Shown here one piece after another: positions 37,679-62,026 of a stretch of DNA of 64,000 nucleotides. The stretch's first letter is position 1, and each line of letters opens with the position of its first letter. The position numbers were made by a program, and so were the translations under genes. The notes under the pieces were generated by a model. That model was given only the letters and a program-made list of their open reading frames with translations, was not told where the DNA came from and ran no database searches. This DNA comes from Rhodococcus sp. 105337 (lineage in GTDB: Bacteria; Actinomycetota; Actinomycetes; Mycobacteriales; Mycobacteriaceae), in contig NZ_JABAGQ010000001.1 of the NCBI RefSeq assembly GCF_012844225.1, positions 372,001 through 436,000 on the forward strand, read 5' to 3'.

Positions 37679-40234
37679 TCAGCTACCGATCACGAGGTGG
37701 TCGCCGTCCTCGCTGACGCCCACCGGGACCGTGTCGCCGTCCCGGATCTCTCCGGCCAGCAGTTTCTTGGCGAGCTGGTCGCCGATCGCCTGCTGGATGA
37801 GCCGGCGCAGCGGACGGGCACCGTACTGCGGGTCGTATCCGCGCACCGCCAGCCACAGCCGCGCGCTGGATTTGACGTCGAGCGTGAGCCGCCGTGCCTG
37901 GAGCCGGTCGGCCAGCTGTGCGAGCTGGATGTCGACGATCTGCGCGAGCTGCTCCTCCGAGAGCGGATCGAACACGACCACGTCGTCGAGCCGGTTGATG
38001 AATTCGGGCTTGAACGCCGACCGCACCGCCGCCATCACGTGTTCCTTGTCGCCCCCGGCGCCCAGGTTGGACGTGAGGATCAGGATCGTGTTGCGGAAGT
38101 CGACGGTGCGTCCCTGCCCGTCGGTGAGCCGACCGTCGTCGAGCACCTGGAGCAGCGTGTCGAACACGTCCGGGTGAGCCTTCTCGACCTCGTCGAACAG
38201 CACCACCGAGTAGGGGCGACGGCGCACGGCTTCGGTGAGCTGGCCGCCCGACTCGTAGCCGACGTACCCCGGAGGCGCACCGACCAGACGCGCGACCGAG
38301 TGCTTCTCGCTGTACTCCGACATGTCGATGCGCACCATGGCGCGCTCGTCGTCGAACAGGAAATCGGCGAGTGCCTTGGCCAGCTCGGTCTTACCGACAC
38401 CGGTCGGGCCGAGGAACAGGAACGATCCGGTCGGACGGTTCGGGTCGGAGACACCGGCGCGGGCACGACGCACCGCATCGGATACCGACTGCACCGCCCG
38501 GTCCTGTCCCACGACACGCTTGCCGAGTTCGTCCTCCATCCGGAGGAGCTTCGCGGTCTCGCCCTCGAGCATGCGTCCGGCGGGGATACCGGTCCATGCG
38601 GCGACGACATCGGCGACGTCGTCGGGCCCGACTTCCTCCTTGAGCATCACGTCGTCACCGGTTGCGGTCCCCGACGCGGCAGCGGCTGCCTCGAGCTGCT
38701 TCTCCAGTTCGGGGATGCGGCCGTACCGCAGTTCGGCAACCTTGCCCAGGTCGCCGTCGCGCTCTGCCCGTTCCTCCTCGCCGCGCAGCGCTTCGAGCTG
38801 CTCCTTGACCTGGCGTACGGAGTCGATCGCGGTCTTCTCGTTCTGCCAGCGCGTCGTGAGCTGGTTCAGCCGTTCCCGTTCGTCCGCGAGTTCGGCGCGC
38901 AGCTTTTCGAGGCGGTCCTTGGAGGCGGCGTCGGTTTCCTTCTCCAGCGCCATCTCCTCGATCTCGAGGCGACGGACGATCCGTTCGACCGTGTCGATCT
39001 CCTCGGGACGCGAGTCGATCTCCATGCGCAGGCGCGACGCTGCCTCGTCGACGAGGTCGATGGCCTTGTCGGGAAGGAACCGCGAGGTGATGTACCGGTC
39101 CGAGAGCGTCGCCGCGGCAACGAGAGCAGAGTCGGTGATGCGCACACCGTGGTGCACTTCGTACCGCTCCTTGAGGCCACGCAGGATGCCGACGGTGTCT
39201 TCGACGCTCGGCTCCCCCACGAAGACCTGCTGGAAGCGCCGCTCGAGGGCGGCGTCCTTCTCGATGTACTTGCGGTACTCCTCGAGGGTGGTCGCACCGA
39301 CGAGGCGGAGTTCACCACGCGCGAGCATCGGCTTGATCATGTTGCCCGCGTCCATCGCGGACTCACCGGTCGCACCGGCACCGACGATGGTGTGCAGTTC
39401 GTCGATGAAGGTGATGATCTCACCGGCGGAGTCCTTGATCTCGTCGAGAACGGCCTTGAGACGCTCTTCGAACTCGCCGCGGTACTTCGCGCCGGCCACC
39501 ATCGCGCCGAGGTCCAGGGCGACGACGGTCTTGCCGCGCAGCGATTCGGGCACGTCGCCCGCGACGACGCGCTGGGCGAGCCCTTCGACGATCGCGGTCT
39601 TGCCGACGCCGGGTTCACCGATGAGCACCGGGTTGTTCTTGGTGCGGCGCGAGAGCACCTGCACCACGCGGCGAATCTCGTTGTCGCGGCCGATGACCGG
39701 GTCGAGCTTTCCCTCGCGAGCACGTGCCGTGAGGTCGGTCGAGTACTTCTCGAGTGCCTGGTAGGTGGCTTCCGGGTCCGCGTTGGTCACCCGGCGGTTT
39801 CCGCGCACGGCTGTGAAGGCATCCCGCAGGGCCGTGGGCGTCGCGCCCTGACCAACGAGAAGCTTGGCCACGTCGGAGTCACCACTGGCGAGACCGACGA
39901 GAACGTGCTCCGTGGAGACGAATTCGTCGGTGAGCTCGGTCGCGAGCTTCTGCGCCGCGGAGAGCGCTGCGATCGCTTCCCGGCCGAGCTGGGGCGTGGT
40001 GGTAGCCCCGGTGGTCTGCGGTAGTGCACCGACGAGTCGTTCGGCTTCGCTCCGCACTGCGGCGGGGTTCACGCCCACCGCTTCGAGGAGCGGAGCGGCG
40101 ATGCCGTCGGGCTGGTCGAGCAGGGCCACCAGAAGGTGTGCCGGCCGGATGTCCGGGTTGCCCGCGGTGGACGCCGCCTGGAGAGCGGCCGTCAATGCGG
40201 CCTGAGTCTTGGTCGTCGGGTTGAACGAATCCAC
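37679..40234 (-). CDS. clpB: ATP-dependent disaggregase ClpB
   Basis: 851-residue Hsp100 chaperone that pulls proteins out of aggregates with DnaK. The N domain covers about 1-145. NBD1 has Walker [10 protein letters not shown] and Walker [14 protein letters not shown]. The coiled-coil M domain covers about 400-525 ([20 protein letters not shown]). NBD2 has [28 protein letters not shown] and SNLGAGG. GTG at 40234 follows AAGGGG. A HAIR (HspR) operator lies 87 bases upstream and the gene for HspR is at 49118, so heat-shock control by HspR is expected. It is divergent from the flavohaemoglobin gene. Confidence 0.97.
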
Positions 40235-40320: not shown

Positions 40321-40341
40321 ATTGAGTTTGTTCCACTCAAG
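40321..40341. promoter_or_regulatory. HAIR operator (HspR site) upstream of clpB
   Basis: ATTGAGT-N7-ACTCAAG matches the HspR-associated inverted repeat CTTGAGT-N7-ACTCAAG with one mismatch and exact spacing. It lies in the 218-base region between divergent clpB and the flavohaemoglobin gene, nearer clpB. Confidence 0.88.
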
Positions 40342-49117: not shown

Positions 49118-49525
49118 TCAGGATTCGCGCGCGTGCCTCGGCTTCCACACGACCAACGCGTTGGTGCGCGGCACGGGCACCAGATCTCGCCGTGCGGAGC
49201 GCAGCTGCGCGACCTCGGTGGACAGTTCCGTGACCCGCTGCTGCAGTGCCTCGACGTGGTTGGTCAACTCGATGATCCGTTTGATCCCGGCGAGGTTGAC
49301 ACCTTCGTCCTGGGAAAGCCGCTGCACCTCACGGAGCAGTTCGACGTCGCGCGGCGAATAACGCCGTCCGCCACCGCTGGTGCGGTGCGGGGTAACCAGT
49401 CCCAGCCGGTCGTAGTTACGCAGTGTCTGGGCGTGCATCCCGGCGAGTTCTGCGGCGACCGAGATGACATAGACACGCGCATCGGGATCCGGCGGGAGAT
49501 TCCGGGGAGTTCCCGTATCGCTCAT
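49118..49525 (-). CDS. hspR: Heat-shock repressor HspR (MerR family)
   Basis: 135-residue MerR-type repressor. The winged helix covers about 12-80, with VYVISVAAELAGMHAQTLRNYDRLGLV and GGRRYSPRDVELLREVQRL. A coiled coil follows (HVEALQQRVTELSTEVAQLRSA). HspR binds HAIR repeats with DnaK as co-repressor. Its ATG overlaps the dnaJ stop by one base (TGATG). Matching HAIR sites are seen upstream of dnaK (53303, 53376) and clpB (40321), so the regulon can be read from this window. Confidence 0.95.
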   Translation of the reverse strand: MSDTGTPRNLPPDPDARVYVISVAAELAGMHAQTLRNYDRLGLVTPHRTSGGGRRYSPRDVELLREVQRLSQDEGVNLAGIKRIIELTNHVEALQQRVTELSTEVAQLRSARRDLVPVPRTNALVVWKPRHARES

Positions 49526-50697
49526 CACGCACCTGCCCATCCTTCACGCGGGTCGAATCCGCCTGCCTCTTCGGCACGAAGATAATCGCGCAGCGCTTCC
49601 GTCGCCTGTTCGTCGAGCTTCTGCGGGATGGCAACCTTGACGGTCACGAGCAGATCTCCCGCACCGCCCCCGCGCTTGGGGACGCCGCGGCCCCGCACCC
49701 GCAGAACCCGGCCGTCGGCCGTGCCCGCCGGGATCTTGAGACCGACCCGGCCGTCGAGCGTGGGAACCGACACGGTGCTGCCGAGCACGAGTTCTCCGTA
49801 GCTGACCGGCAATACGAGTGTCAGGTTGTCGCCGTCCCGGCCGAACACGCGGTCGGGCCGGACGTGCACGACGACGAAGAGGTCGCCCGACGGCGCACCC
49901 CGCAGGCCGGCCTCGCCTTGCCCGGCGAGGCGGATGCGCGAACCGTCCTTGATGCCCGGAGGTACGCGCACGGTGATGGTGCGGGTGCGCTCCTGGACGC
50001 CGCTGCCGCGGCAGTCACGGCACGGGCTGTCGATGATCGAGCCCGAACCGCGGCATTCGTCGCACGGCTCGGAGAATCCGAAGGCGCCCTGGTTGCGGGA
50101 GACGATCCCGCTTCCGTTGCACTGCGGGCACACCCGCGGGCTGGTGCCCGGCTCGGCGCCGCTGCCGTGGCAGGTGGTGCACGGCGCGGGACTGGTCAGA
50201 CGCAACGGAACGGTGACGCCTTGCACGGCGTCACGGAAGTCGAGGGTCGTCTCGGTCTCGATGTCGCCGCCGCGGCGTGGCCGCGACCGGTTCGCACCGC
50301 CCCCGGGTGTCGCACCGCGGTTGAAGAGCCCTCCGAAGAGGTCGCCCAATCCACCGTCGCCGGCCCCGCCGCCCCCGAAGAGGTCACCGAGGTCGAATGT
50401 GGTGCTGCCCCCGGAGAATCCGCCTCCGCTGGGCTGGAAGCCGCCGCCGAAACCTCCGGACGCGAACATCCGGCGGGTCTCGTCGTATTCCTTGCGCTTG
50501 GCCGGGTCGGACAGGACGGCGTTCGCCTCGCTGACCGACTTGAACCGCTCCTCGGCCGCGGCATCGCCGGGGTTGGCATCGGGATGCAGATCCCGAGCCA
50601 ACTTGCGGTAGGCCTTCTTGATGTCTTCTTGCGAAGCGTCGGACGAGACGCCCAGGTCCTTGTAGAAGTCCTTTTCGATCCACTCCCGCTGGCTCAC
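49525..50697 (-). CDS. dnaJ: Co-chaperone DnaJ
   Basis: 390 residues. The J domain is at 10-75 with the HPD tripeptide in [12 protein letters not shown] Gly/Phe-rich region covers about 80-145. A zinc domain has four CxxCxGxG-type repeats ([32 protein letters not shown]). The C-terminal substrate domains follow. It stimulates DnaK ATPase and delivers substrates. GTG at 50697 follows GGAGGAG. The slightly extended N-terminus ([17 protein letters not shown]) marks the DnaJ1 type of the actinobacterial dnaK operon. Confidence 0.97.
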
Positions 50698-50728
50698 CGG
50701 GCGTCTCCTCCTCTCGCTCTTGTTGTTC

Positions 50729-51396
50729 TTACTCTGTGCCGGCGCTGTCGGACGGCGATTGCTCCGGCGTGTCCGCCGGATCGCCGTCGGTGACAGTCAC
50801 CATCGCATGCCGCAGAATCCGGTCGCCGACGCGGTAACCCTTGCGCAGGATCGTGCCCAGCACCGGGTTGCTGCCGTCGCCTTCCATCTGGACCGCTTCG
50901 TGCAGTTCCGGATCGAACACGTCGCCCTCGTCGCCGAAGCCGACGAGGCCGAGTCCGGTCAGAATGCGGGTGAGCTTGTCGCTCACCGCCTTCAGCGGTC
51001 CGGATTCGAGGTCGCCGTGGGCACGGGCCCGATCCAGATCGTCGACGACGTCGAGGAACTGCGCCACCACCGAGGCCTTCGCGGACTCGCCGATGGCGGC
51101 CTTCTCGCGTTCGGCCCGGCGACGGTAGTTGGTGTACTCCGCGGAGACGCGCTGCAGATCCGCGGTACGTTCCGCGAGTTCCGCTTCGGTGGAGACGATC
51201 TCCTCGACGCGGACCTCCTCGCCGTCCTCGTTCTCGACGACGCCCTCGTTCACGGTGCCCTCGTTTTCTACGGTGCCCTCGGCAGGGGCACCGGTGCCCT
51301 CACTCGACTCGGCCGCGTCCCGTACCTCGAAGGTCTCGGGATCGATGCGACGCTTGTCGGTGACGGTCACCGGTTCCTGCTCGGGCTTACCCGACG

Positions 51397-51400
<4 letters not shown>
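50729..51400 (-). CDS. grpE: Nucleotide exchange factor GrpE
   Basis: 223 residues. An acidic, disordered N-terminus of about 65 residues (repeats of EGTVENEG type) is followed by the long coiled coil ([23 protein letters not shown]) and the beta domain with [11 protein letters not shown] and [20 protein letters not shown]. It releases ADP from DnaK. The GTG at 51400 overlaps the dnaK stop as GTGA. Confidence 0.96.
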
Positions 51401-53241
<1,841 letters not shown>

Positions 53242-53302
53242 GATTTCCTCCAAAATGTTTCACCGCGACGCGAGTCGCACCGCGGAACGTTCAGTTCCCC
53301 AA

Positions 53303-53323
53303 CCTGAGCCTGTTCGACTCAAC
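53303..53323. promoter_or_regulatory. Second, weaker HAIR-like site in the dnaK leader
   Basis: CCTGAGC-N7-ACTCAAC keeps the exact 7-base spacing of HAIR and matches 10 or 11 of the 14 arm positions. It lies 62 bases upstream of the dnaK ATG. An overlapping inverted repeat CTCAACTTGGC/GCCAAATCGAG follows at 53318-53342. Confidence 0.5.
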
Positions 53324-53375
53324 TTGGCTTCGCCAAATCGAGACTGCACCCTTTCGGACGCTTCAGTCAAGTGGA

Positions 53376-53396
53376 GTTGAGCCTTGGTAGCTCAAG
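53376..53396. promoter_or_regulatory. HAIR operator (HspR site) upstream of dnaK
   Basis: GTTGAGC-N7-GCTCAAG is a near match to CTTGAGT-N7-ACTCAAG with symmetric changes in both arms. On the dnaK strand it lies just upstream of TTGACT, a likely -35 element, which suits repression by HspR-DnaK. Confidence 0.82.
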
Positions 53397-53684
53397 TTGT
53401 CTGATACATGCAACCGAAGATCTGGCCGGATCGTTCCCGGATGTGATGGTCTTCACATTCGTCCGACGGAGTCCAAGTCGGCGCCGCGCTCCGTCCGCCG
53501 GGGCCCGAATACTCTCCTGAAGCGGCGGCCCGACGGGTCCACCTGGTGGTTTCGAGATTCACCTATCGTTATGTCCGCATACGCCTGTACATTTCCGCGG
53601 AGACTGTGCAGCATCACGTCGCCCGGATCCGGCGCGGCCGGTCCCCGTTGCACAAGCTCCGACCAGATTTGGGGGAATTCCGGC

Positions 53685-55238
53685 ATGTCCGTAGGCGTAG
53701 GCCTGAGGGTGGGCAACTCCGTGTCGTCGGTTGCGGTCACCTCGTCGTCGCCCGGACGACCCGACCCGTCACCCATCGAACGGCGCACAGCAGTACACCT
53801 GCACTCCGATGGCACCGCGACGCTCGGCGACCACGACTTCTTCGACGGAACCACCAGTTCGTTCACCGAGTTCGTCAGCAGCATCGGCCGATCCGGCGGC
53901 GTCCGCGCCAACGACGGCTCCCTCTCCCGCGCCGAAGACCTCGTGGCAACGGCCATGGAATGCCTTCTCGCCGACGCGGCCCGCCTCATCGGCGACCAGC
54001 CGTACACCGCGGTCGCGACCCATCCCACCGAGTGGCCGCCGTCGACCGTCGCCGTCCTGCGCAACGCACTCGACTACGTGGGATTGCGGTACGTGTCGCT
54101 CATCTCGGACGCCGAGGCAGCCGCCGCGTGGTACGAGTCGCAGGTCGCCCACCAGACCGGCCGGCTCATCGCCGTCCACCACATCGATCCGCTGGGCTCG
54201 ACGGTCACCCTGGTCCGCTCCGGTGTCGCGGCAGGTAAGTCGTTCCGCTTTGCCGAAGAGGACGCGCCGTCCGTGACAGCGCAGCTGTCCGCCGCCCTCG
54301 GGGCGTTCGGATGGCTCGTCAGCAATCTCGACGCCATCGTCGTCACCGTCGACGAAGCCATCGATCCCACCGCAGCCCAGCTGGTTGCCCAGTCCTTCAA
54401 GACCGGCCTGGGAGTGCGGAGCGCACTCGCACCCGAGCCGCACCAGACGATGGTGCGCGGCGCGGCGCTCGCTGCCGCTGCGGGGTCGGTGGATCTGCTG
54501 GGCTCGACCCAGATTCTGCCCGTCGCGCGTCTCACCGGGCCCAAGCGCAGCGAACTCGACACCGAGACCACCACCGTCATCGCCAAGATCACGGCCACTC
54601 CGCCTCCCGAAACGACCGGAACGGTCAGGGCCAGCTCGCCGGCGCCGGAACCGGCAGACGAGTCCGAGACCAAGCGCCGGTCCTCACTGTTCACCGTCGG
54701 CGCTGCGGCAGCGGCGATCGCTCTGCTCGTCGGTGTGGGCGCGTGGGTGTTCACGATGCGCGACTCCTCGACGGCGACCGCCAATACATCACCGATGGAG
54801 ACGACGGTCGCGCCGTTCGGCGACACCACGCGGACACCGTCCCCCACGAAACCGCCTGGCGGCACCCCGACGACAACCACGGCAGAGTCGTCCACGGAGT
54901 CCGACACCTCCGCGGCGGTCGCTCCCGCGGTCGCGCCGGCGGGCGGCGCACCGGCCTGGACCGATCCGAGCACCACCGGCGACGCAGCGACCTCGTCGTC
55001 GAATACCGGGTCGTCGAGCGCGGGGCCGTCGAGCAACACGACGACGAGCACGGGATGGTCGCGCCGTAATCCGCCGTCGAGCGGAGGCGGAGGCGGAGGC
55101 GGCAACGACTCGGGTGAGACAACGTCGACGACGTCGCCCTCGACGCCCACCGAGACCACACCGACCGTTAATCCGGAGCCGGATGAGCCCGTGGAGCCCA
55201 CTCCTACCACGGAGGAAAGCGGCTCTTCCGGCGGCTGA
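53685..55238 (+). CDS. Degenerate Hsp70-like protein with a membrane anchor and long Ser/Thr/Pro tail
   Basis: 517 residues. The first 330 or so follow the actin/Hsp70 fold: MSVGVGLRVGNSVSSVAV aligns with the DnaK start [15 protein letters not shown], and YVSLISDAEAAAAWYES matches [16 protein letters not shown]. The nucleotide motifs are lost: DLGTTN becomes LRVGNS, DLGGGT becomes DPLGST, and no GGSTR is present. A membrane helix lies near 335-357. The last 160 residues are a Ser/Thr/Pro/Gly-rich outer tail. ATG at 53685 follows GGGGG. It is divergent from dnaK and close to secreted proteases. ATP hydrolysis is unlikely; a scaffold or sensor role is speculation. Confidence 0.8.
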   Translation: MSVGVGLRVGNSVSSVAVTSSSPGRPDPSPIERRTAVHLHSDGTATLGDHDFFDGTTSSFTEFVSSIGRSGGVRANDGSLSRAEDLVATAMECLLADAARLIGDQPYTAVATHPTEWPPSTVAVLRNALDYVGLRYVSLISDAEAAAAWYESQVAHQTGRLIAVHHIDPLGSTVTLVRSGVAAGKSFRFAEEDAPSVTAQLSAALGAFGWLVSNLDAIVVTVDEAIDPTAAQLVAQSFKTGLGVRSALAPEPHQTMVRGAALAAAAGSVDLLGSTQILPVARLTGPKRSELDTETTTVIAKITATPPPETTGTVRASSPAPEPADESETKRRSSLFTVGAAAAAIALLVGVGAWVFTMRDSSTATANTSPMETTVAPFGDTTRTPSPTKPPGGTPTTTTAESSTESDTSAAVAPAVAPAGGAPAWTDPSTTGDAATSSSNTGSSSAGPSSNTTTSTGWSRRNPPSSGGGGGGGNDSGETTSTTSPSTPTETTPTVNPEPDEPVEPTPTTEESGSSGG

Positions 55239-55375
55239 TTCCGTACGTGATCTAGGGCACATTTTTTGCACTGACGTTTGTGCCGTAGGCTGTCCCGCGG
55301 GTCGGTACCGCAAGTACCGCGCTCGTGTACATAATTGCAGTTCAGACCGCTGATCCACCATGTAGAAGGGCCCTC

Positions 55376-56701
55376 ATGCGTCTCTTGCCGGCGTCGCGCG
55401 CCGCTCGTTCCACCGCCCGCCGTGTCGCCGTCGCAGCGGCGTCGGCCGTGTTGCTGGTGGGACCGCTGACCACCGCCGCCCACGCGAGCCCGGCAGAGCA
55501 GCTCCCGGTTCCCGATCTGCCCGCCGAACTGGTGGATGCGATCACCCGGGATCTGGGCATCTCACCGGAGGAATACCTCGATCGGGCCGCCCGCGCGCAG
55601 GCGCTGGGCGACTACGCCCGTTCGTTCCGGGCCGAGAGCCCGGACGACTACGCGGGTGCGTGGCTCGGCGAAGACGGGCAGCCCGTCGTCGCGGTGACCA
55701 ATCGGGATGCGGCAGAGAAGGCACAGAAGGACGGCTACCGCGCCACGGTCGCCCCCCTGTCCGCCGACGGCCTCGAGCAGGCCCTCGCGGAGCTGAACCG
55801 GTGGGTGTCGGCACTTCCGCGCGAGGTGTCGTCCCAGGTGAATTCGACGTCCATCGACGTCCTCAACAACCAGCTCGTGGTCGACGTCCTGAATTCGCCG
55901 GTCGGACGCGCCCTGAATCTCCCGTCGCTCATCGCGAACGTGCAGGTACAGCTGAGCCCCGGCCTTCCCCCCAACGATCCGGCTCCGCTCGGAGGCGACA
56001 CCTACCTCACCGCCGACGGCGACGTGCGGACCACGCCGCTCGAGCGGATCGGTATCTGCTCGTTCGGATTCAGCGGTGTCGACGCGAACGGCGACCCGGT
56101 CAACCTCACCGCCGGCCACTGCGACGCCGTCGCCCGTGAGCAGGGTGGCTCCACGGTCTACCTGCCCAACCGGGAAGACATCGACGCCAGCACCAAGATC
56201 GGCACGTTCACCCAGTCCACGGTGGGCACGGACAGCACGCTCGACTACGGGGTCATCTCCCTCGACGAGGCCGGCGTCGCCGCGGGTCTGAACCGCCCGG
56301 TCGTGCGCGGTGGCAACGGCTCCACGCTGACCATCACCGGCACCGCAGTTCCGGTCGTCGGCGCGCCCGTCTGCAAGTCGGGGCAGTCCTCCTCGTTCAC
56401 CTGCGGTGTCGTCGCCGCCGAGCGTGTCGAGACCCAGCTCGTGTACAACTCCGGGTTCTCCAGCACCATCCGGGGCTTCGCCACGACGGCCTGCACCTTG
56501 TCCGGCGACAGCGGCGGATCCATCGTCACGGGCACGCTCGCTCTGGGCGTGATCAGCGGCTCCAACAGCGCGGGCGCACCGAACTGCGTCGAAGCGAACC
56601 TCGTCCTCGCGCCCAACGGAGGCACCTCCAGCCTGGGTATTTCCATCCGCGACATCGAGAACGCCACCGGCAGCACGGTGCGCACGATCAACGCTGCGTA
56701 G
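55376..56701 (+). CDS. Secreted S1-family serine protease (streptogrisin-like), copy 1
   Basis: 441 residues. A long Sec signal (about 1-38, ending AHAS) is followed by a helical pro-region with LPAELVDAITRDLGISPEEYLDRAARA. A chymotrypsin-fold domain starts near 215. The catalytic triad is H248 (LTAGHC), D290 (LDYGV) and S379 (SGDSGGS). Six cysteines, including CKSGQSSSFTCGVV, can form disulfides. The pro-region resembles alpha-lytic/streptogrisin pro-domains that assist folding. ATG at 55376 follows GAAGGG. A closely related gene follows 160 bases later. Confidence 0.92.
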   Translation: MRLLPASRAARSTARRVAVAAASAVLLVGPLTTAAHASPAEQLPVPDLPAELVDAITRDLGISPEEYLDRAARAQALGDYARSFRAESPDDYAGAWLGEDGQPVVAVTNRDAAEKAQKDGYRATVAPLSADGLEQALAELNRWVSALPREVSSQVNSTSIDVLNNQLVVDVLNSPVGRALNLPSLIANVQVQLSPGLPPNDPAPLGGDTYLTADGDVRTTPLERIGICSFGFSGVDANGDPVNLTAGHCDAVAREQGGSTVYLPNREDIDASTKIGTFTQSTVGTDSTLDYGVISLDEAGVAAGLNRPVVRGGNGSTLTITGTAVPVVGAPVCKSGQSSSFTCGVVAAERVETQLVYNSGFSSTIRGFATTACTLSGDSGGSIVTGTLALGVISGSNSAGAPNCVEANLVLAPNGGTSSLGISIRDIENATGSTVRTINAA

Positions 56702-56861
56702 CCTCACCGGGGCTGTTCACAGGAGCAACACCCGACACACCGGTCACTCACAACCCGCTGTGAGTCACACCTGTTACCCCTTAGGATCGACCAATGCCGG
56801 TCCTCACGGGTCAGCTACCTTTGCGCGCTCGAGCCGCGGAGGGACAACGAGAAAGGTTTTC

Positions 56862-58160
56862 ATGCGCCGCTCCTTCGCACGTCAGGCAGCCGTCATCGGC
56901 TCAGCCGCCGTGTTGCTCCTCGGCACCGCAGCCACCGTCGCTCAGGCCGAGCCTGCGCCCGCCCCGACGACCGCACTGCCGGCCGAACTGGTGGAAGCGT
57001 TGCAGCGAGACCTCCAGATCAGTCCCGACCGTTTCCTCAACGACGCCGAGCGCAGTCAGGAACTGGCCCGCTTCGCCGACAAGGCGCGCGAGCAGTTCGA
57101 GAGCGTGTTCGCCGGTGTCTGGCTCGACGAGCAGGGCACACCCATCGTCGGTCTTGCCGACGGTGAGCAGTTCGACGAGGCCCGCACGGCCGCCGAGGAC
57201 TCCGGTTTCGTCGTCGAGAAGACGGAGAACAGCGAGAACGCACTCGAAGCCCGGTTGAACGAGCTCAACGACTGGCTCGACACTCAGCCGCCTGCGATCG
57301 CCGACGTCATTCGCGGCATCGCGATCGACGTGGTGAACAACGACGTCGTGGTTCGCGCCGAGAACGTCGCCGGACTCGAACTGCCGCCGTTCCTCGACGG
57401 CGTGCGTGTTCTCTTCGCTCCGACCGAGCTGACGCCCGAGTCCACTCCGGAATTCGAGTTCACCGCTGGAATCGCGGCGCCCGACGCCCTGCTCGGCGGA
57501 GACGCCTACGCGGCTCTCGGTGCCGGCGCAGGCCTTCGCTGCTCCCTCGGGTTCAACGCCGAGGACGGTTCGGGCAGCCCCGTCAACATCACCGCCGGTC
57601 ACTGCGATCCGAACCGTTCACAGGCCGGAACGCGGTGGGCGTCCGAGGTGTACCAGCTTCTGGGCGACACGCTCGGCCAGCGTCTCGGAACGTTCGAGAA
57701 GACCAGCCTCGACAACAACGACTACGGCATCATCCGGCCGGCAGCCGATGCCGCAGGCAGGTTCGAGAACAACGGCGTGCGTGTTCCCAACGCCGCGCCC
57801 CTGCCGATCACCGGCACCGCCGATCCGATCGTCGGAACGCCCGTGTGCAAGTCGGGCCTGCGGACCGGCTACAGCTGCGGCATCGTGACGTCGTCGCAGC
57901 AGAACGTCGCGATCGGCGAGCGCGTGCTCAGCAACGGTTTCTCCACGAACCTGTGCGCACTGCAGGGTGACAGCGGCGGAACGCTCGTCACGGGCACCCT
58001 GGCACTCGGCATCTCCAGCGCCTCGAACGTCGGCCAGTACGGCCTGTGCGAGGTCGCCGGATTCGTCAGCAGCCTGCTGGGCGAGACGCCCGAGTTGTTC
58101 GCGACACCGATCAACGCAGTTCTGGCCGAGAACCCGGGCCTGAAGATCCGCACCTGGTAA
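56862..58160 (+). CDS. Secreted S1-family serine protease (streptogrisin-like), copy 2
   Basis: 432 residues, the tandem paralogue of the previous protease. A signal peptide (ending VAQAEP) leads to a matching pro-region LPAELVEALQRDLQISPDRFLNDAERSQ. The catalytic domain has the triad H247 (ITAGHC), D287 (NDYGI) and S371 (QGDSGGT), with CKSGLRTGYSCGIV. The extra C-terminal residues (LFATPINAVLAENPGLKIRTW) are not in copy 1. ATG at 56862 follows GAGAAAGG. A U-tailed terminator follows. Both copies keep a full triad, so both should be active. Confidence 0.92.
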   Translation: MRRSFARQAAVIGSAAVLLLGTAATVAQAEPAPAPTTALPAELVEALQRDLQISPDRFLNDAERSQELARFADKAREQFESVFAGVWLDEQGTPIVGLADGEQFDEARTAAEDSGFVVEKTENSENALEARLNELNDWLDTQPPAIADVIRGIAIDVVNNDVVVRAENVAGLELPPFLDGVRVLFAPTELTPESTPEFEFTAGIAAPDALLGGDAYAALGAGAGLRCSLGFNAEDGSGSPVNITAGHCDPNRSQAGTRWASEVYQLLGDTLGQRLGTFEKTSLDNNDYGIIRPAADAAGRFENNGVRVPNAAPLPITGTADPIVGTPVCKSGLRTGYSCGIVTSSQQNVAIGERVLSNGFSTNLCALQGDSGGTLVTGTLALGISSASNVGQYGLCEVAGFVSSLLGETPELFATPINAVLAENPGLKIRTW

Positions 58161-58177
58161 ACACTCGATCTCGAGAA

Positions 58178-58212
58178 GAGGCCCTCCTTCCGTTCGGAAG
58201 GAGGGTCTTTTT
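58178..58212 (+). terminator. Rho-independent terminator after the protease pair
   Basis: CCCTCCTTCC-GTTC-GGAAGGAGGG forms a perfect 10-base stem at 58182-58205, followed by TCTTTTTCT. It lies about 20 bases after the stop at 58160 and is the most canonical terminator in the window. Confidence 0.93.
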
Positions 58213-58236
58213 CTGTGCCTGGCGCCATCGACGCCG

Positions 58237-58875
58237 TCAACGACGGATGTATCCGAGTTCGGTAGCCGACGCCACCGCAGCCGTGCGCGAATCGACCCCC
58301 AGCTTGGTATAGATACGCGCGAGATGGGATTTCACCGTGCCCTCGGTGAGGTGCAGTCGCTGCGCGATGCGGTGGTTCGACAGCCCCTCCGCGACCAGCC
58401 CGAGAACCTCGACCTCCCGGCCGGTCAACGACGTGCCTGGAGCGCGAAGACGATGGACGAGCCGATCCGCCACTGCCGGAGCGAGAGTCGTGCGACCGGA
58501 CGCCGCGGTACGGATCGCGGCCGCCAACTCCTCCGGAGGCGCGTCCTTGAGCAAGTAGCCGGTGGCACCGGCCTCGATCGCCGGCAGTGTGTCGGCGTCG
58601 GTGCCATAAGTGGTGACGATTACGACGTGCGGAGCCCCGGGACGGGAAGTGATGGCGGCCGTCGCGGCAGCACCCGACATCTGCCCACGCCCGAACTGCA
58701 GATCCATCATGACCACGTCGATGTCGGGTGCGGTCGCCCGGGCCACCGCGTCCTCGGCAGTCGTCGCCTCGGCGACGACCTCGATTCCCGGCTCCGTCTC
58801 GAGAACTGCACGCAAACCCGCCCGGACGACCGGGTGATCGTCGGCGAGCAGTACACGGATCGGGTCGGCGCTCAC
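58237..58875 (-). CDS. NarL/LuxR-type response regulator
   Basis: 212 residues. The receiver domain covers 1-125, with acidic pair DD at 12-13, phospho-acceptor D58 (VVMMDLQFG) and GATGYLLKDAPPEEL. A LuxR HTH covers about 148-210 (LTGREVEVLGLVAEGLSNHRIAQRLHLTEGTVKSHLARIYTKLGV). Its GTG overlaps the kinase stop as GTGA, so the two form a cognate pair. The likely target is the divergent ABC exporter, as is common for such pairs (inference). Confidence 0.94.
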   Translation of the reverse strand: MSADPIRVLLADDHPVVRAGLRAVLETEPGIEVVAEATTAEDAVARATAPDIDVVMMDLQFGRGQMSGAAATAAITSRPGAPHVVIVTTYGTDADTLPAIEAGATGYLLKDAPPEELAAAIRTAASGRTTLAPAVADRLVHRLRAPGTSLTGREVEVLGLVAEGLSNHRIAQRLHLTEGTVKSHLARIYTKLGVDSRTAAVASATELGYIRR

Positions 58876-60071
58876 AGATGCCTCTCGGAAGACGATTCGG
58901 AGGGAAGCGGAAGTACGGCGGTGATCGAGGTCCCCTCGCCTTCAGTGGATCGCACGGTGAACGTACCTCCCAGATCGTCCACGCGGGCGCGCATCGCCGC
59001 CAGCCCGAAACCGCTCTCGGGCGCAGGTTCGGGCACCGACCCCGGATCGAAGCCCACCCCGTCGTCGGTGATGTCCACCGCTACGCGGTCGTCCCCGAAG
59101 TCGAGGGTCACATCGACACCTGTTGCCCGAGAGTGACGGGTCGTGTTCGCGAGCGCCGATTGAGCCACCCGGAGCAACGCGACTTCGTACTCGGGCGGAA
59201 GGCCGGCCGGAGCACCACGGAGGTGGAAGCGGGCGTCGATGTGATGCCTGTCGGTCGTTGTTGCGCACAGTCGCTCCAGCGCGCCCGCCGGCGTGGTGCC
59301 GTCCAGAGCCGGAGGAGCGAGCGCAGCCACGAAACGTCGCGCTTCTCCGAGGTTGTCCACAGCGACCGAGCGCGCGCGGCCGACATAGCCGGCGGCGACG
59401 TCCACCCGTTCGGGCAGAGCCCGCTCGGCGGCACGCAGCAGAAGCTGGATACTCGAAAGCCCCTGTGCGAGGGTGTCGTGGATCTCGCGTGCGAGTCGTT
59501 CTCGTTCTTCGAGAACCCCGGCACTGTGCTGGGCGGCGGCGAGATCCGCACGTGTGGCGGTGAGTTCGTCGATGAGCATCCGGCGTTGCTCGCTTTCCCG
59601 GTACAACGCCTGGTAGCTCCACACCACTGCCACCGCCACCGCGGCACCCAGCGACGGCCCGATGGCGACGGCCGGGCTGAAGGCACCCTGATGAATCGAG
59701 AAGCCGACGACGGCCGCCGCGGTGGTGAGCAGTACCGCAACGAGCCCGCTGCGCCGGGGCAGCAGGTGCAGCTGCACGAAATAGAGAGGGAACGCCAGCC
59801 AGACTGCCTCCGGCGAGACCGTCAGAAGCACCAGCCACACCGTCCCCACCGCGGAGAGCCATACGACGGCTCCGGCGTAGGACCGGCCGACAGCGGGCAG
59901 CAGGGGTCCGAGACCGTAGGTCACCGCTGCTAGCACCGCCACGGCGGCGACGAGTACCGCGTCGGGTGCCGAATCCGCGAATGCTCGAACTACGGCGAGT
60001 GCGAGCAACCCGACGACGAGCAGATGGAGGCACCACGCCAGGAGCCGGACTGTAGGGGTCAACGTATTCAC
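58872..60071 (-). CDS. Sensor histidine kinase (HisKA_3, NarX/LiaS type)
   Basis: About 399 residues. Five to six membrane segments lie in the first 155 residues with no large outer loop, so it probably senses within the membrane. The coiled linker QRRMLIDELTATRADLAAAQ leads to the dimerisation helix with REIHDTLAQGLSS (H198 phosphorylated). The ATPase domain has ALANTTRHS (N box), DITDDGVGFDP and GFGLAAMRARV. GTG at 60071 was chosen as the start just before the first membrane helix; in-frame GTGs further upstream exist. It is co-transcribed with the regulator at 58237. Confidence 0.92.
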   Translation of the reverse strand: MNTLTPTVRLLAWCLHLLVVGLLALAVVRAFADSAPDAVLVAAVAVLAAVTYGLGPLLPAVGRSYAGAVVWLSAVGTVWLVLLTVSPEAVWLAFPLYFVQLHLLPRRSGLVAVLLTTAAAVVGFSIHQGAFSPAVAIGPSLGAAVAVAVVWSYQALYRESEQRRMLIDELTATRADLAAAQHSAGVLEERERLAREIHDTLAQGLSSIQLLLRAAERALPERVDVAAGYVGRARSVAVDNLGEARRFVAALAPPALDGTTPAGALERLCATTTDRHHIDARFHLRGAPAGLPPEYEVALLRVAQSALANTTRHSRATGVDVTLDFGDDRVAVDITDDGVGFDPGSVPEPAPESGFGLAAMRARVDDLGGTFTVRSTEGEGTSITAVLPLPSESSSERHL

Positions 60072-60236
60072 TGTCAGTCGAGCGTACGGGCGCGCAGCGG
60101 GCTGCACATCCACCGAAAGATACAACCGGGCGCGCCTCCTTCGGCCTGCGAAGTCCTCTCTCCTGCCGGATGTCCTTCCGGTCTCCCACGGCAAGAGTGG
60201 AGGGCACACCGTTTCCCACGAGAAAGCAGCCGCACC

Positions 60237-61322
60237 GTGTTCGTTGCCTGGAGAGACCTGAGATTCGCCAAGGGCAGATTCGCTCTGATGGGATCCGTCG
60301 TCGTACTGATCACTCTGCTGGTCGGATTGCTGTCCGGCCTCACCGCCGGTCTCGGCCGCCAGAACACCAGCGCCATCACGGCCCTGCCTGCCGACCACAT
60401 CGTCTTCGATACCCCCGCGAACGGACAGGGCTTGTCGTATGCCGAGTCGGTGGTCACCGCAAGCCAGTGGCGACGAGTGGCCGCCACCGAAGGGGTGAGC
60501 AGCGCCGAACCGGTAGGAATCTCCACGACCAAGGCGGCGGCCGGGGAATCGGGTCTCACCGTGTCCGCATTCGGTGTCCGGCCCGGTTCGCCCCTCGTTC
60601 CGGGCGGCGCCCCCGACGGCGAGGACACCGCGGTGTTGACAACTCCGGTCGCCGACAGCCTCGGGGTGGCGCCGGGCGACGCGATCACCGTGGCCGGACG
60701 CGATCTGAAGGTCGGTGCGGTGCACGGCGACGAATCCTTCGGTCACCTTCCGGTGATCTGGATCGACCTGGGCACGTGGAGACACATCGCACCCCCCGGC
60801 GGCACCGGCCCGGAGCGGACCGCCACGTTCGTCGCGCTCCGCACCACTGCCAACTTCGACGCCGTCGCCACCGACCGTCTCGCGGGAACCACGACGGTTT
60901 CGAAGAGCGCATCGCTGTCCGCTATCGGTTCCTACGCGTCGGAGAACGGCTCGCTCCAGTTGATGCGAGGATTCCTCTTCGCCATCTCCGCGCTCGTCAT
61001 CGGCGCCTTCTTCACCGTCTGGACGATCCAGCGAAGCGGCGACATCGCCGTGCTCGAAGCCCTGGGTGCCTCCACCGGCCGGCTCGTCCGAGATGCCCTT
61101 GGGCAAGCCCTCGTCGTGCTCACCGCTGGTACCGCCCTCGGCACTGCGCTGGCGGCCGCTGCCGGTGCGGCGCTCTCCGGGTCAGTTCCGTTCGCACTGA
61201 CGCCGGCCACCCTCCTGGTACCGGTGGCGGTGATGATCGCCCTCGGCTCCCTCGGCGCAGCGATCGCTGTTCGCCGCATCACCTCCGTCGACCCCCTCAC
61301 CGCTCTGGGAAGTGCCCGATGA
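60237..61322 (+). CDS. FtsX-type ABC transporter permease
   Basis: 361 residues. One N-terminal membrane helix (about 15-38) precedes an outer domain of about 190 residues and three C-terminal helices (RGFLFAISALVIGAFFTVW; VVLTAGTALGTALAAAAG; LLVPVAVMIALGSLGAAIAV). This is the MacB/DevC type VII topology, used for export or for transmitting mechanical force. It starts FVAWRDLRFAKGRFALMG, as DevC-like proteins do. GTG at 60237 has GAGAAAG upstream. The stop overlaps the ATPase start. Cargo unknown. Confidence 0.9.
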   Translation: MFVAWRDLRFAKGRFALMGSVVVLITLLVGLLSGLTAGLGRQNTSAITALPADHIVFDTPANGQGLSYAESVVTASQWRRVAATEGVSSAEPVGISTTKAAAGESGLTVSAFGVRPGSPLVPGGAPDGEDTAVLTTPVADSLGVAPGDAITVAGRDLKVGAVHGDESFGHLPVIWIDLGTWRHIAPPGGTGPERTATFVALRTTANFDAVATDRLAGTTTVSKSASLSAIGSYASENGSLQLMRGFLFAISALVIGAFFTVWTIQRSGDIAVLEALGASTGRLVRDALGQALVVLTAGTALGTALAAAAGAALSGSVPFALTPATLLVPVAVMIALGSLGAAIAVRRITSVDPLTALGSAR

Positions 61323-62026
61323 GTCTGATCCTGACCGATATCTCCCTCACCTACGCCGACGGCGACGACCGTGTGCTCGCCCTGGACGACGTCACGCTCG
61401 ACGTGCCCGCCGGCACCGTCACCGCCGTGGTCGGCCCGTCCGGCTCCGGTAAATCGAGCCTGCTCGCCGTGGCCGCCACCCTGATCGCTCCTGACTCCGG
61501 AACGGTCGTGATCGACGGTGTCGCCACATCCGGCCTGTCTCGCGCTCGTCTCGCGGAACTGCGTCAGCACACCATCGGGATCGTCTTCCAGCAGTCCAAC
61601 CTCGTACCGTCGCTCACGGCTGTCGAGCAACTTCAGGTGATGGCCTGGATCGACGGGCGCTCGACCCGCGAAGCGAGGTCCCGCGCGATGTCGTTGCTCG
61701 AATCGGTCGGTATGGCGGATCACGCCGACCGCAGGCCGCACGCGTTGTCCGGCGGCCAGCGGCAACGGGTCAACATCGCGCGCGCCCTGATGAACGAGCC
61801 GAATGTGCTTCTGGTCGACGAACCGACCAGCGCCCTCGATCAGGAGCGCGGCGAGGAGATCGTCGAACTGATCACCCGTTTGTCACGGGAACGGCACACC
61901 GCCACAGTTCTCGTCACGCACGACCGCTCGCTCCTCGGCGCCGCGGACCGAGTCGCCGAAGTCCACGACGGACGGCTGGTGACGATCCCCTCGCCGCCGC
62001 TTCTCACGCCGTCTCTCCCGCAATGA
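61319..62026 (+). CDS. ABC transporter ATPase (MacB/LolD-like)
   Basis: 235 residues, standard for this class. Walker A is GPSGSGKSS, the Q-loop QQSNL, the signature LSGGQRQRV, Walker B VLLVDEPTSALD and the H-loop VTHDRS. The ATG at 61319 overlaps the permease stop as ATGA. It powers the FtsX-type permease. The divergent two-component system suggests induction by envelope stress or a membrane-active compound. Confidence 0.96.
   Translation: MSLILTDISLTYADGDDRVLALDDVTLDVPAGTVTAVVGPSGSGKSSLLAVAATLIAPDSGTVVIDGVATSGLSRARLAELRQHTIGIVFQQSNLVPSLTAVEQLQVMAWIDGRSTREARSRAMSLLESVGMADHADRRPHALSGGQRQRVNIARALMNEPNVLLVDEPTSALDQERGEEIVELITRLSRERHTATVLVTHDRSLLGAADRVAEVHDGRLVTIPSPPLLTPSLPQ

Follow-up and report, generated by a model that had tools for sequence, protein, structure and literature searches.

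A Membrane-Anchored Pseudo-Hsp70 Gene Beside dnaK in Rhodococcus: Probable Survivor of an Extended iniBAC/IniR Locus

The soil bacterium Rhodococcus sp. 105337 carries, in the 64,000-nucleotide stretch of its genome analysed here (the window), a gene for a pseudo-Hsp70 membrane protein (53685..55238, forward strand). With a probability of roughly 0.7, we regard this gene as a survivor of a cell-envelope stress locus, the extended iniBAC/IniR locus of Nocardiaceae-type bacteria, and its product as a membrane adaptor that works without ATP. The ancestral order would have been the dnaK operon and iniC-iniA-iniB, followed, divergently, by an hsp70-like gene (hsp70L), iniR, the gene at 53685, protease 1, and protease 2. 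Deletion in the lineage of the window would then have removed the iniBAC genes, hsp70L, and all of iniR except a relic, so that the gene at 53685 now lies 443 bp from dnaK. The protein would represent a lineage of Hsp70-like proteins from the iniBAC/IniR locus. Most likely, its membrane-anchored core binds a cytoplasmic partner, while a stalk-like tail would extend into the envelope, where both secreted proteases presumably act.

Sequence and Predicted Structure of the Pseudo-Hsp70 Protein

An ortholog with a conserved open reading frame (ORF) was found in all 18 genomes of the genus that were searched (its own and 17 others). A chance ORF or an annotation error was ruled out by this conservation and by core dN/dS values far below 1. 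The positive-inside rule and the names of the Hsp70 lobes are used here in their generally known sense.

Residues 1-268 (53685..54488, forward strand) have, according to the predicted structure and the alignment, a nucleotide-domain fold of Hsp70 type. A profile match to the Hsp70-like family was obtained (E 5.8e-39), with lobe IIB missing in the alignment. The phosphate-1, phosphate-2, and adenosine motifs of Hsp70 (PF00012) are absent from the protein: the phosphate-1 loop is replaced, the phosphate-2 position reads HIDPLGSTVTL, and the adenosine motif GGSTRMP has become VDEAIDP. The Hsp70 substrate-binding domain is absent as well, as residues 269-333 form a low-confidence part of the model and are followed by a single membrane helix (residues 338-356; 54696..54752, forward strand) and a fast-evolving outer tail of about 160 residues, 54% of which are Ser, Thr, or Pro (54753..55235, forward strand). 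What remains in the predicted protein is therefore the core, one helix, and the Ser/Thr/Pro-rich outer tail. The first-pass annotation of this DNA had described a non-hydrolysing protein with the Hsp70 layout but no phosphate-binding motifs, a single transmembrane helix, and an outer tail rich in Ser, Thr, and Pro. The helix and the tail are borne out, as are the fold and the loss of motifs, but the layout is less complete than had been thought, since the protein also lacks both lobe IIB and the substrate domain. The loss of the nucleotide motifs fits a non-hydrolysing Hsp70 fold, which we consider very probable, and nucleotide binding may still occur via other residues.

The HSP70 sequence model (PF00012) gave no match to the protein up to E 10 and none at E 1 to the 33 members of its alignment. 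When the family alignment was searched as a profile against the PDB, the outcome was a single weak match of 27 residues (E 0.026). The precomputed label of the protein and of many listed homologs is DUF7159 (PF23717.2); the local version of the model, PF23717.1, gives no match, and a search with it matched 0 of 41 genomes. The PF00012 and PF23717 labels co-occur on two proteins, P0111 and P0122.

The Two Secreted Proteases

Downstream lie the genes for two secreted S1 proteases, as the first-pass annotation had stated. The first (55376..56701, forward strand) is of the alpha-lytic/streptogrisin type, with TAGHCD, DYG, and GDSGG motifs, and the catalytic motifs are also present in the second (56862..58160, forward strand); both genes encode an alpha-lytic-type catalytic domain with its His, Asp, and Ser motifs. 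The alpha-lytic pro-domain was matched weakly: the Pfam model hit protease 2 only, below the cut-off (E 0.013), and phmmer comparison of the proteases with 2pro_A gave weak pro-domain matches (E 0.011 and 0.1). The model of the Rv1815 family of serine proteinases (NF051463) scored 26.1 and 27.9 bits, against a cut-off of 175.

A cassette comprising a response regulator, a histidine kinase, and an ABC permease and ATPase (58237-62026) follows protease 2 and precedes the next conserved gene; among the loci mapped, it was seen in the window's own genome (G000) and in G016 only. An ABC ATPase paralogous to that of the cassette (51-55% identical) is located approximately 5 to 6 kb from a tail-less paralog of the pseudo-Hsp70 protein (the C30 type, see below) in several relatives.

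Gene Order in the Genus

Both protease genes are found downstream of the pseudo-Hsp70 gene in 18 of 18 genus loci, with broken frames in G005, a 75%-complete assembly. On the upstream side, an IniR homolog directly precedes the gene in 13 of the 18 genomes, and dnaK is the nearest mapped gene in five (G000, G016, G008, G001, and G010), with one extra predicted gene in between in G008 and G001. Beyond iniR, where contigs allow, the hsp70-like gene comes next and then the divergent iniB, iniA, and iniC. hsp70L was seen in 11 of the 13 iniR-side genomes, and contig ends interrupt the loci of G005 and G015. A single contig of G007 carries hsp70L, iniB, iniA, iniC, one more ORF, and the dnaK operon; the ancestral order proposed above is derived from this arrangement. 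The identity of IniR rests on NCBIfam NF038181 (E 2.6e-156; 522 bits, under the equivalog cut-off of 750), that of IniB on an IniB_NTERM match above the cut-off, and those of IniA and IniC on their position together with matches of the dynamin/GTPase type.

The gene starts with ATGTCCGTAG (53685..53694, forward strand in the window) in 17 of the 18 loci, G009 being unmatched by the pattern. In three loci (L038, L043, and L048), the TAG within ATGTCCGTAG is the stop codon of iniR, giving a 10-nt overlap, and in L038 a gap of 9 nt separates hsp70L from iniR. MalK holds MalT, a regulator related to IniR, at the membrane. By analogy, the flanking Hsp70-like proteins might tether or inhibit IniR until trehalose or envelope damage frees it, and the protein of the window would be a leftover of that system. 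The presence of an Hsp70-type gene on either side of iniR, the close spacing just described, and the MalT-like domain of IniR with its activation by trehalose (PMC5760070) would suit such a tether. It is nevertheless improbable, as the gene is kept under strong purifying selection where iniR has been lost, and in G077 a pseudo-Hsp70-type gene lies beside dnaK without iniR.

The iniR Relic and Probable Loss of the iniBAC Block

In the window, dnaK (51397..53241, reverse strand) is the first gene of dnaK-grpE-dnaJ-hspR (49118-53241). Between it and the pseudo-Hsp70 gene lies a relic of the end of iniR that encodes the LuxR-type DNA-binding region (53541..53635, forward strand), which matches G014 iniR at the DNA level with 82% identity across 95 nt. 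Such a 3′-end relic is present upstream of the gene in all five dnaK-side genomes, with matches at the protein level too. The best bit scores were 96.0 (window), 89.7, 290, 50.0, and 71.6, compared with maxima of 33.7, 32.8, 32.8, 31.9, and 30.1 in 200 shuffles each; the shuffles permute non-overlapping letter pairs and omit the last 20 bases, which are included in the observed match of G008 and the best one of G001. In G001, the best match takes in the start region of the pseudo-Hsp70 gene itself, and a second piece of 66 nt matches at E 1.1e-7.

In genome-wide searches, a close iniA was found in 12 of the 13 iniR-side genomes and in none of the five dnaK-side genomes, which have at most distant dynamin-like matches. 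A near-full-length iniR showed the same distribution (12/13 and 0/5), and iniR matches in the dnaK-side genomes were confined to the relic or to short LuxR-domain matches. The one exception among the 13 is G005, whose locus is cut by a contig end. With regard to hsp70L, the search covered 10 genomes: a close homolog was detected in all five of the other genomes tested (396-1226 bits), versus none of the five dnaK-side genomes (best 49-71 bits). The genome of the window has no close iniA, no intact iniR, and no close hsp70L.

A tree of 17 genomes, from which G005 was left out for its broken protease frames and 75%-complete assembly, requires four changes of the gene-order label, and well-supported branches force at least three. 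The tree counts changes without direction; the relics and the gene order in other genera point to loss rather than gain. The adjacency of dnaK and the pseudo-Hsp70 gene is thus almost certainly a deletion scar, and dnaK would be a neighbour through deletion, not ancestry. In addition, TGTACATT is kept in the iniR relics of all five dnaK-side genomes (the window, L036, L040, L045, and L046) and may be part of the promoter of the pseudo-Hsp70 gene.

Relatives Beyond the Genus and Paralogs

Twenty loci were read in detail beyond the genus, and a contig scan with one protein as the query gave only 4 loci. Three Nocardia records have the order hsp70L, iniR (followed in two by a second IniR-like gene), a gene in the slot before protease 1, protease 1, and protease 2. 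The gene divergent from hsp70L has an IniB-like start by eye and gave no tblastn match on that strand; iniA and iniC are present in two records, and the third is cut by a contig end. In G022, of another genus, iniB, hsp70L, iniR, two slot-like genes, and both proteases were found.

Among 151 genomes of the family searched at E 1e-6, 85 match the protein family (including hsp70L and paralogs) and 86 match the protease. In 62 genomes, protease 1 was matched with 395 bits or more; among the matches listed, a member of the protein family lies within 2.6 kb upstream in the same orientation in 41 of these 62 (31 of 52 outside the window's genus), only farther upstream in 11, and nowhere in 10. This count used 94 of the listed rows and omitted genomes without a strong protease-1 match and other loci of the same genomes.

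The slot proteins form a natural series of Hsp70 erosion in which the helix and tail are usually kept. The first grade consists of nearly full Hsp70-like proteins of 578-599 residues with a full nucleotide domain (L092, L095, L102, and L106), the second is the Rhodococcus form, which has lost lobe IIB, and the third, without lobe II, occurs in Nocardia and in L090, L094, L104, and L105. Such a series is useful for asking what role an Hsp70 fold plays without ATP. In a tree, slot proteins are mostly separate from hsp70L (three changes for the slot label, one hsp70L-labelled row among the slots), with several long rows that make the placement of single slot proteins unsure.

The association with the proteases is not obligatory. 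L088 (G042) and L089 (G058) pass from hsp70L to iniR and on to protease 1, with no slot gene between; in the genome of G018, where a weak match (44 bits) occupies the slot after iniR, no protease match was obtained; and a paralog elsewhere in the window's genome has no protease nearby. L105 (G077) and L094 (G063) are further reduced loci beside dnaK. Only dnaK, an oxidoreductase-like gene, and the proteases were found in L093 and L101, with no slot gene, apparently through convergent loss. In these two loci, which belong to another genus, the gene that separates dnaK from the proteases (L093:10682 and L101:10386) encodes 473 residues, and neither iniBAC nor iniR was mapped. A direct functional tie between the pseudo-Hsp70 protein and the proteases falls somewhat short of even odds.

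Other proteins of this kind are encoded in the window's genome. The gene of the tail-less C30 paralog (L055:9350-10450, G000:C30), also present in the other genomes of the genus, lies between genes that we read as lipase-like and R2-like oxidase-like. An Hsp70-like protein of at least 483 residues (L071:8460-9911, G000:C12; PF00012 E 3.9e-12) is encoded next to genes that read as groES/groEL. Another (L070:10064-11392, G000:C1; PF00012 E 3.4e-16) lies approximately 37 kb downstream of the 53685 locus, presumably beside a cold-shock-type gene and an aminotransferase-like gene.

HAIR-Like Sites and Candidate Promoters

Two HAIR-like inverted repeats lie between dnaK and the pseudo-Hsp70 gene, scored with the known HAIR (HspR-site) consensus. 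The first (53303..53323) has three mismatches to the consensus and, by comparison, is in the dnaK promoter region; the second is at 53376..53396. Together with the divergence from dnaK and the protease genes downstream, these repeats had led to the earlier proposal of a dnaK-linked envelope proteostasis module under HspR/HAIR regulation, in which the protein would report the state of the cytoplasmic chaperones outward and control protease release. The survey of gene neighbourhoods upholds the link to the proteases, in every genus locus and in most of the family genomes counted above among the matches listed, but not the link to dnaK, which occupies the upstream side in just five of the 18 genomes, always with an iniR relic between. 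Similarly, the repeats do separate the two divergent genes, but they also precede dnaK in L073 and L053, where the pseudo-Hsp70 gene is not adjacent. Such a module is accordingly very improbable, although a regulatory capture of the gene by HspR after the deletion is possible. Elsewhere in the window, a HAIR-like site with one mismatch (40321-40341) lies just upstream of an 851-residue ORF on the reverse strand (37679-40234), which by size and place is probably clpB.

The protease pair may be transcribed separately from its own promoter, because a -10-like TAGGCT (55286..55291, forward strand) within CCGTA(G/C)GCT, the candidate promoter element upstream of protease 1, is conserved in all 16 genomes aligned (16 of the 18, without G005 and G009). 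A sigma-70 consensus scan of 53200-58300 found no site. One terminator-like site was detected, after protease 2, which is fewer than the shuffle mean of 2.2.

Selection on the Protein and the Proteases

dN/dS was calculated for nine chosen pairs, with G005 excluded for its broken protease frames and 75%-complete assembly. The core gave 0.025-0.20 versus 0.20-0.58 for the remainder of the protein, and in some pairs the constraint on protease 1 equals or exceeds that on the core. Between G000 and G016, both without the iniBAC block, the values were 0.046 for the core, 0.41 for the rest (after residue 268), and 0.11 for the proteases. Since the gene is retained and constrained where both IniR and iniBAC have been lost, its function is independent of them; this retention and the dN/dS values show that the core works without IniR, IniBAC, and hsp70L.

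These values also bear on the idea that the core is a passenger and that the helix and the Ser/Thr/Pro-rich outer stalk alone are important, serving near the secreted proteases as an anchor or a glycosylated spacer. The Nocardia-like slot proteins, which drop lobe II and keep the helix and a tail of 44-58% Ser/Thr/Pro, would be in line with it. However, the Rhodococcus core is far more constrained than the rest in the nine pairs, and the C30 paralog retains the core and helix without the tail, so we rate this idea as quite unlikely. A more elaborate possibility, also unlikely if less so, is that in bacteria of the Rhodococcus/Nocardia group a less and a more eroded Hsp70-fold membrane protein flank IniR as a through-membrane relay, with the secreted protease pair as its outer arm, and that this relay, though ATP-dead, goes on working with the proteases alone where the regulator and iniBAC have repeatedly been lost. 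Our preferred reading remains the ATP-free membrane adaptor that survived from the iniBAC/IniR locus.

Comparison with Known Systems

In mycobacteria, ethambutol and isoniazid induce the iniBAC promoter more strongly than any other, and IniR and its activation by trehalose were described by Boot et al. 2017; one sentence of that paper notes that in M. smegmatis iniR has a dnaK-like gene downstream (PMC5760070). In the open-licence literature searched, no description of the extended iniBAC/IniR locus was found, iniBAC with Rhodococcus gave a drug-resistance review, and pseudo-Hsp70 membrane proteins gave nothing that looked relevant. That literature also yielded nothing on DUF7159 or on IniR/iniBAC together with Hsp70. 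Among the papers listed for Rv0312 and Rv2264c, neither name appears in a title, and one abstract, on epitopes of putative outer membrane proteins, names Rv2264c. In relatives, the two Hsp70-type membrane proteins around iniR and the two secreted proteases after it are candidates for a membrane step between envelope damage and IniR. The locus also carries a caution: a gene found next to dnaK in a single genome may owe that position to a deletion.

The 53685 protein shares the nucleotide-domain fold with Hsp70/DnaK (PF00012), but it differs in lacking the nucleotide motifs, lobe IIB, and the substrate-binding domain and in having a membrane helix and a stalk. With DUF7159 (PF23717), by name a domain of unknown function, it shares the precomputed label. 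Both proteases resemble the alpha-lytic/streptogrisin S1 proteases in catalytic domain and motifs, whereas their pro-domain match is weak, and both are far under the cut-off of the Rv1815 family (NF051463). As in the mycobacterial iniBAC/IniR system (PMC5760070), relatives of the window have the IniB N-terminal domain, a dynamin-type IniA, and an IniR-type ATPase/LuxR regulator, in several cases near the dnaK operon. Unlike in that system, iniR of these relatives lies between two Hsp70-type membrane proteins, followed by two secreted proteases, and the window keeps only the downstream part of this arrangement and the iniR relic.
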